DNA of 64,000 nucleotides from Bacteroidota bacterium (GTDB taxonomy: Bacteria; Bacteroidota; Bacteroidia; CAILMK01; JACPUW01), in the NCBI GenBank assembly GCA_016192035.1, contig JACPUW010000024.1:1-64000 (forward strand), given 5' to 3'. The translations under genes and the position numbers were made by a program. Below the pieces are notes generated by a model, which saw nothing but the letters and a program-made list of their open reading frames with translations, ran no database searches and was not told the DNA's origin. Positions 35,118 to 37,150 of this stretch are shown here, piece after piece (position 1 is the stretch's first letter; each line of letters starts with the position of its first letter).

Positions 35118-35154
35118 ACCGCCATTCCTTGGCTAAGGGGTGGCGGTTTTTTTT
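35118..35154 (+). terminator. Intrinsic terminator
   Basis: ACCGCCA (35118-35124) pairs with TGGCGGT (35141-35147), followed by eight T residues. It ends the T9SS cargo gene. Confidence 0.8.
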
Positions 35155-35177: not shown

Positions 35178-35196
35178 GTTTAGAATGTTTCTAAAC
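35178..35196. promoter_or_regulatory. Operator-like inverted repeat upstream of the iron permease
   Basis: GTTTAGAA-TGT-TTCTAAAC is a perfect 8+8 inverted repeat with a three-base spacer. It ends four bases before a -7-like TAATTTCG (35201-35208), so a bound protein would block the promoter. Metal-dependent repression is plausible from the gene served, but the regulator is not identified. Confidence 0.5.
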
Positions 35197-35200
35197 AAGC

Positions 35201-35208
35201 TAATTTCG
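35201..35208 (+). promoter_or_regulatory. -7-like promoter element (TAATTTCG) of the cytochrome c-FTR1 gene
   Basis: TAATTTCG differs from TAnnTTTG at one base and lies 20 bases before the ATG. The same octamer occurs upstream of guaB (37238). Confidence 0.4.
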
Positions 35209-35227: not shown

Positions 35228-37150
35228 ATGCGCATTATTGCCATCTGTTCCCTTTTACTTACATCAGGACTTGTCCGGGTATTTGCCCAGGATTCTTTTG
35301 ATCCGCGCATGGCCGTACACCTGCTCGATTATATAGCAGCCGACTACTCTATGGCGGTGGAAAACGGTGTGGTAATCAACCAATATGAGTATGATGAAAT
35401 GCAGGAGTTTGCCGCTACTGTTGAAGGTATTTTGCATGAGATGGCCCATGAAAGGCCTTCAACAAAATTTGACTCCCTCCTGGTCCAGGCTGGGCTACTC
35501 ATACAGGGCATAGAAGCGCTGGAAAGCGTCGATAAAATACGGGACAGGGCCATTGGCATGAAAAACATGGTGATAGAGCTGGGAAAAATCCCCACCGGGC
35601 CTGCCAGGTGGCCAAGCCCTGAAAACGGAAAAGCCCTGTACGCAGCCCATTGTCAATCATGCCATGGGGCCAACGGCCATGCCGATGGTGCGGCCGCCCA
35701 GGGTTTAGACCCCAAACCCACTGCCTTTGCCAACCAATTGGTGATGGCCGATAAATCGCCCCTGCAATCCTACCACACCGTCAAATACGGAATTGACGGA
35801 ACATCCATGTCGGGGTATGCCCACCTCTCTGAAGACCAATTGTGGGACTTGGCTTTTTTCCTGCACAGCCTCCGGTTTTCCAGCCCAATGCTCGATACTT
35901 ACGACCCTGCCAAATATCCGGAAATTGCCCTGTCCGATCTTGCTTCCAAGAGTGATAAGGAATTGCTCAACACCGATCCAGGCCTTGACCAAAAAAGCTT
36001 GGCCTACTGGAGGGTTGGCCACAGTGTGGCGGGTCAAGGCCCAGGCCCGCTTGAAGTGGCGCTACGGCTCATGAAAGAATCCCTGACACATGCCCGGTCT
36101 GGCGAATATGAATTGGCAAAAAATAAGGCACTGTTGGCCTACCTAGATGGAATTGAGCCAATAGAAGTGATCCTTAAAGCGCAAGATCCCAATGCCGTAC
36201 AAGATTTGGAACTTGCCATGGGGGCTTACCGCAAAATGGTGGACCAGAAAAAAAGTGCATTGGAATTGGAAGGACAAGCGGAAAACATATACCACCTTAT
36301 TCAACAGGCGCAGGAGCTTATGGACAATAAAACGTCCTCCTTTTGGCTCACTTTCCTTATGGCGGGCTCCATTATCCTTCGCGAAGGGATAGAGGCTTTC
36401 CTTATCATTATCATCATGTTGTCTGTCCTAAAAAAAGCCAATGCCCTCCAAGTAGCCAAATATGTCCACGCGGGCTGGATACTGGCCCTGGCCCTGGGAT
36501 TTGTGGGCTGGTATTCTGCCGATAAACTTATGAAAATGAGCAGTATGGGCAGGGAAGTAATGGAAGGCGCCGCCGCGCTGGTGGCCGTGGTTGTATTGTT
36601 TTACCTGGGCATTTGGATGCATGGCCTTTCTGAAGCCAAACGGTGGAACCAGTTTGTGAAAGAGCGCATACACAAGCTGCTGGATGCCAAGAATGCACTG
36701 GGCATGGCAGCCTTTAGTTTCATGGTGGTGTTCAGGGAGGCATTTGAGTCCGTGTTGTTCCTGTCGGCCATAGGGCTTGATGCCCAAGAATATGACAACC
36801 ATGCCTTGGGGCTGGGGGTAATGGTGGCATTTGCACTCGTAGGCGGGCTAGCCTTAGTGGTCATGCGCTATAGTGCCAAACTTCCTGTTAATCAGTTGTT
36901 CAGATATTCTTCTTATGTTTTGGCCGTACTGGCCGTCATTTTGGCGGGCAAAGGAATCCACGCCCTGCAAGAAGCGGGATATGTGGGTATTTCAGCTTGG
37001 CCCATCAGCTGGCGTTCGGAGTGGCTGGGAGTGTATCCTACCGTAGAATCCATGATGGCCCAATTGGTCGTGGCCATTGCTTTGGTTGCCGCGAGGTGGG
37101 TACAGTCCAGGCGCAGTGAACCCAAGAATGGTGCCGTAACAGCCGCATAG
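35228..37150 (+). CDS. FTR1-family iron permease with N-terminal cytochrome c domain
   Basis: The 640-residue protein has a signal peptide, a helical region, and a c-type cytochrome domain with the haem motif CQSCHGANG (about residues 144-152) and a likely axial methionine in GTSMSGYAH. From about residue 375 it is a seven-helix permease with the two FTR1 motifs REGIEAFLIII (about 388) and REAFESVLFL (about 507), which coordinate iron. The fusion suggests that iron oxidation or redox coupling accompanies uptake across the inner membrane. Cytochrome-linked FTR1 proteins are known in Bacteroidota. An operator-like palindrome precedes it. Confidence 0.9.
   Translation: MRIIAICSLLLTSGLVRVFAQDSFDPRMAVHLLDYIAADYSMAVENGVVINQYEYDEMQEFAATVEGILHEMAHERPSTKFDSLLVQAGLLIQGIEALESVDKIRDRAIGMKNMVIELGKIPTGPARWPSPENGKALYAAHCQSCHGANGHADGAAAQGLDPKPTAFANQLVMADKSPLQSYHTVKYGIDGTSMSGYAHLSEDQLWDLAFFLHSLRFSSPMLDTYDPAKYPEIALSDLASKSDKELLNTDPGLDQKSLAYWRVGHSVAGQGPGPLEVALRLMKESLTHARSGEYELAKNKALLAYLDGIEPIEVILKAQDPNAVQDLELAMGAYRKMVDQKKSALELEGQAENIYHLIQQAQELMDNKTSSFWLTFLMAGSIILREGIEAFLIIIIMLSVLKKANALQVAKYVHAGWILALALGFVGWYSADKLMKMSSMGREVMEGAAALVAVVVLFYLGIWMHGLSEAKRWNQFVKERIHKLLDAKNALGMAAFSFMVVFREAFESVLFLSAIGLDAQEYDNHALGLGVMVAFALVGGLALVVMRYSAKLPVNQLFRYSSYVLAVLAVILAGKGIHALQEAGYVGISAWPISWRSEWLGVYPTVESMMAQLVVAIALVAARWVQSRRSEPKNGAVTAA

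Follow-up and report, generated by a model that had tools for sequence, protein, structure and literature searches.

The 19-bp palindrome at positions 35178-35196 of the window (the whole 64,000-nucleotide stretch of DNA analyzed here) is very probably a genuine operator of an already described type. We hold with considerable confidence that it is a Bacteroidota-type Fur box, at which the binding of Fe(II)-loaded Fur would block the promoter of a gene for a cytochrome c-FTR1 iron permease; Fur is the likeliest regulator, ahead of DtxR or MntR. This reading builds on the site itself, on its recurrence in the genome, on its retention upstream of the orthologous FTR1 gene in one congener and on its match to the published Fur box. 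Our literature search showed no earlier report of an FTR1 gene with a Fur box in this bacterial group.

The palindrome and the putative FTR1 promoter

The site reads GTTTAGAATGTTTCTAAAC, that is, GTTTAGAA-TGT-TTCTAAAC, with the TGT centre between two perfect 8-base arms, and is assigned to neither strand. The ATG of the inferred target gene, at 35228, follows after 31 bases; the gene (35228-37150, plus strand) codes for a protein of 640 residues with matches to the FTR1 (PF03239; E 7.4e-25) and cytochrome c (PF00034; E 5.3e-12) families. Both the perfect 19-base palindrome and the iron permease behind it, as described in the first-pass annotation, are thus confirmed. The same annotation had the palindrome abut a -7-like element, which is nearly so: the putative element, TAATTTCG (35201-35208, plus strand), begins four bases past the end of the palindrome, and the range 35178-35208 spans both. 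It has one mismatch to TAnnTTTG, a -7 consensus of the Bacteroidota. On the other side, a terminator-like hairpin with a T tail (35118-35147, plus strand) lies after the upstream gene, whose product ends in a Por_Secre_tail sorting domain, and separates that gene from the FTR1 promoter. This domain and the HmuY genes described below suggest a member of the Bacteroidota.

The congener has a 44% identical orthologue of the permease, with the box conserved upstream; the -7-like element starts 22 bases from the start of the core here (TAATTTCG) and 23 bases from it in the congener (TATTTTCG). A search of 12 genomes from the order gave a full-length relative of the permease in the congener alone, the other listed matches being to the cytochrome domain only, and a pattern search for permease relatives in the named genomes returned 75 stretches, none of them a relative. 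The genome containing the window has no match to FeoB_C (PF07664), so FTR1 may be a main inner-membrane iron importer and may account for a large share of iron entry through that membrane. There is one weak match to Nramp (E 1.9e-9), and the surrounding 4 kb contains no core, whether exact or with one mismatch.

Match to the Fur boxes of Riemerella anatipestifer

The Fur box of Riemerella anatipestifer is given as ATTTAGAATTATTCTAAAT, and purified Fur shifted four chosen promoter fragments (PMC5609570). Like the window site, this box spans 19 bp, with half-sites TTTAGAA and TTCTAAA about a 3-base centre (PMC5609570), and when the two are aligned in register 15 of the 19 positions are identical; the window site differs in its outer pair, which is G/C and not A/T, and in its TGT centre. 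The Riemerella boxes also lie less than 100 bp from the start codons of iron or haem uptake genes (PMC5609570, PMC10986502, PMC11967795). Unlike those cases, the window site precedes the gene for an FTR1 permease, a target absent from the Table 5 passage of PMC5609570. The Escherichia coli Fur box quoted in the same report, GATAATGATAATCATTATC, is likewise a 19-bp iron operator of a Fur-family repressor, and agrees with the window site at 9 of 19 bases in register.

The rhuB promoter carries ATTTAGAATTATCCTAAAT and is regulated by iron and Fur, and its gel shift required Fe2+ (PMC10986502); in a Riemerella strain with a mutated Fur box, rhuH was derepressed (PMC11967795). The rhuH box lies 25 and 78 bases from two genes, distances equal to those in Table 5 of PMC5609570, and its letters are absent from the passage concerned (PMC11967795). 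Another iron-regulated promoter carries ATTTATTTTTATTCTAAAT (PMC5976166), and feoAB, which is said to have a Fur box, was derepressed in a fur mutant (PMC10434265). Binding of Fur to an iron-uptake promoter was seen only when Mn2+ was added (PMC7976709). The published picture is not uniform: PMC7976709 presents the E. coli consensus as that of Riemerella, in conflict with PMC5609570, and the Riemerella sprT promoter was shifted despite the poor match of its listed box (PMC5609570).

Recurrence of the core

Perfect 8-3-8 palindromes number seven in the window, against 0.98 expected from base composition; the palindromic shape alone is therefore weak evidence, and we rejected the view that the palindrome is significant on its own. 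As a word with up to three mismatches, the site occurs once in the window, with no second copy (shuffle mean 0.12; 11 of 100 shuffles reach one).

Its recurrence genome-wide is strong evidence. The exact core, TTTAGAnnnnnTCTAAA, occurs seven times in the 2.98-Mb genome and five times in that of the congener, against no match to the reversed control in either. Exact cores alone are informative: the excess in the genome disappeared once mismatches were allowed, be it up to three in the 19-base word (13 matches, 17 for the control) or up to two in the core (98 and 131). Cores with one mismatch number four in the genome, two of them within long reading frames. In G002, a genome of the same family with a 75% identical Fur, no exact core was found, against two control matches.

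Genes beside the copies in the two genomes

The exact cores of the genome lie before the FTR1 permease gene; at a TonB-dependent receptor gene, the substrate of which is not settled by family models; at a cluster of HmuY, TonB receptor and HmuY genes; at the gene of a membrane protein without a family name, adjoining the HmuY cluster; and at genes for a SulP transporter, for a methyltransferase and for a cytochrome c adjoining a molybdopterin oxidoreductase. At the last site, a 6-pyruvoyl-tetrahydropterin-synthase gene lies on the opposite side, and reading by eye suggests that the oxidoreductase is a nitrate reductase. FTR1 and the HmuY cluster are thus the two plain iron or haem uptake loci among the seven exact sites, and the TonB receptor site is likely a third. 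A core with one mismatch precedes the gene for the iron-sulfur repair protein RIC. No box or near box was found at the genome's own fur genes. In the congener, exact cores lie before the FTR1 orthologue (where the core, TTTAGAATGATTCTAAA, is one base off the published Riemerella core), before the gene of a succinate-dehydrogenase membrane subunit and before that of a thermolysin-like peptidase, and two more, with a third near copy, lie between the orthologue of the membrane-protein gene and a divergent gene. The metal-responsive site proposed in the first-pass annotation, for which a lack of further copies near metal genes would have counted as refutation, is supported by the further exact copies before iron or haem uptake genes.

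The membrane protein has 293 residues (L006:8882-9760, minus strand, in G000:C36) and its orthologue 277 (L079:1586-2416, plus strand). The two are 65% identical; neither has a Pfam match, and the protein of the window's own species has no NCBIfam match. With one exact box in one species, two exact boxes and a near one in the other, and HmuY-like genes nearby, it is a candidate for a part of iron or haem uptake; the boxes of the congener could serve the divergent gene instead, or as well.

At the methyltransferase gene (L005, G000:C30:123650-123692) two copies of the box, one exact and one with a mismatch, lie 24 bases apart, with an exact TAnnTTTG directly downstream of the pair and a rhodanese-thioredoxin gene at the far side.

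Distribution of the box across the class

The word used for the class, ATTTAGAnnnnnTCTAAAT (19 bp), differs from the window site at the two outer bases, and the counts that follow therefore speak of the near relatives of the window site. In a sample of 295 genomes, drawn evenly, 165 had the word, and 253 were of good quality, 142 of these with the word; copies numbered 299 over the 295 genomes, against 35 for a control word. Matches to DtxR were found in 242 of the 295 genomes and to Rrf2 in 165, while 30 were without Fur, ten of these being so assigned by their absence from the list of Fur matches. Among the good genomes, 141 of the 238 that match Fur have the word, as does 1 of the 15 that do not (Fisher p 5.6e-5, kinship ignored). 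When Fur and DtxR are taken together, it was present in 130 of 201 genomes with both, in 11 of 37 with Fur only, in 1 of 12 with DtxR only and in none of three with neither; these single-regulator groups, which are small and take no account of kinship, point to Fur. All 31 good genomes with at least three copies have a Fur match, 30 a DtxR match and 20 an Rrf2 match. The exact word is missing from 97 of the 238 good genomes that match Fur. It is likewise missing from five genomes of the order (G006-G010), all of which match Fur, G008 weakly.

The genes beside the box were examined at 30 loci of the class, one per first-listed genome and so not a random draw; two belong to the window's genome and its congener, leaving 28, several from close relatives, so that the counts are not independent. 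A Pfam scan covered the neighbouring gene at 27 of the 28, the exception, L069, having no gene start within 300 bases. An IscA-like gene (PF01521) lies beside the box at 12 of the 28 loci (L056, L057, L058, L060, L061, L062 and L072-L077), and nine further loci carry genes for a TonB plug protein, two multihaem cytochromes, SdhC, two HemA proteins, SufB, NqrA and a Rieske protein. At the other seven (L059, L063, L065, L066, L067, L069 and L070) no plain iron link was found on the scanned side.

Genes for users of iron thus also lie near the box (L031, L071, L078, L084, L068, L081 and L007): SdhC in two species, HemA at two loci, two multihaem cytochromes and the cytochrome c beside the molybdopterin oxidoreductase. 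Simple repression by Fe-Fur leaves these unexplained. Elsewhere Fur shares the control of iron supply and demand with small RNAs or with Irr-type regulators. That a single Fur box before both importers and users (IscA/SUF, SdhC, HemA, cytochromes) makes Fur a two-way switch of supply and demand is a speculative reading, which we put forward as rather unlikely.

A fixed distance between the box and the -7 element was also considered as a rule for the class, and is not supported by the 28 other loci. A spacing of 20-23 bases is found at 4 of 13 sites of the genome and its congener, namely at FTR1 in both species (with one mismatch in the element) and at the TonB receptor and methyltransferase genes (with an exact one). 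At the 28 other loci, on both strands, one exact TAnnTTTG lies at 20-24 bases, and with up to one mismatch allowed 7 of 189 matches do; exact matches cluster instead at -15 (seven) and -23 (five), for which the kinship of the genomes may account.

Candidate regulators and alternative readings

The genome has one match to the DtxR family (L025), two to Fur (L026 and L027) and three to Rrf2. L026, of 151 residues (G000:C23:162950-163402), matches PF01475 with an E-value of 2.6e-24, and its best 14 matches in the PDB are named ferric uptake regulators or Fur-family regulator, with a PerR 15th of 18. Its nine NCBIfam matches all fall below the cut-off, with a PerR model first by 0.5 bit, so that Fur and PerR are not separated by them. 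L027, the smaller of the two, is 31% identical to L026 and matches PerR, Zur and Fur models, again all below the cut-off. A site read by another member of the Fur family, with L026 as a PerR-type peroxide sensor or with L027 as the reader, could draw on these model matches, and a stress regulon could likewise account for the iron-sulfur and haem genes beside the box; against this stand the lead of ferric uptake regulators among the PDB matches of L026 and the available published box and mutant data, which concern iron and Fur (PMC5609570, PMC10986502, PMC11967795). We regard this reading as highly improbable. The DtxR/MntR-type operator suggested in the first-pass annotation, which also named Fur among the candidates for a binding test, fares no better and is, in our estimate, very unlikely. 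L025 is a possible reader, the words TTAG and CTAA are common to Fur and DtxR sites, the DtxR/IdeR box is also a 19-bp palindrome, and the class word goes with DtxR (131 of 213 good genomes with a match and 11 of 40 without; p 9.8e-5, kinship ignored). However, the half-sites of the DtxR/IdeR box stand at another distance from the centre, as the annotation had itself remarked of the spacing, and in register this box shares 5 of 19 bases with the window site, whereas the Riemerella Fur box shares 15; the word is found in 1 of 12 DtxR-only genomes against 11 of 37 Fur-only ones, small groups in which kinship is ignored; the congener, with its five exact cores, has no DtxR hit in a genome 81% complete; and no core within one mismatch lies in the 3-4 kb around the dtxR and Nramp genes of the window's own genome.

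The IscA-like genes at 12 of 28 class loci, the SufB gene at one, the one-mismatch copy before RIC and the three Rrf2 matches in the genome would all suit an iron-sulfur sensor of the Rrf2 family (IscR, RirA or NsrR-like). The word, however, is independent of Rrf2 among the good genomes (82 of 143 with a match and 60 of 110 without; p 0.70), 11 of the 31 good genomes with at least three copies have no Rrf2 match, and neither has the congener at 81% completeness, so that such a sensor is extremely unlikely to be the reader. It is scarcely credible, finally, that the palindrome is an RNA hairpin in the transcript or a product of chance: the 71-nt region does fold somewhat better than its shuffles (z -1.72; 14 of 200 as good) and the window holds seven such palindromes, but the exact core recurs elsewhere against no control match, and a transcript started from the putative -7 element would not include the box, which lies further upstream.

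Proposed iron-dependent control of the permease

Returning to the Fur box, we infer which protein binds, that its binding represses, and where the promoter lies. With plentiful iron in the cytoplasm, Fur in its Fe(II)-loaded form (L026, of 151 residues, being the most likely protein) would bind the box and block the FTR1 promoter, with the left half-site over the -33 region and the putative -7 element four bases downstream; when iron is scarce, Fur would be released and the permease made.

The iron permease is thereby likely to be controlled in response to iron through a known regulator, and an operator characterized in Riemerella, a duck pathogen, is extended to another lineage of the same large group. 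The word of the box may be used to list the iron regulons of bacteria for which genetic tools are lacking, and the box itself points to a membrane protein without a family name as a possible part of iron uptake.
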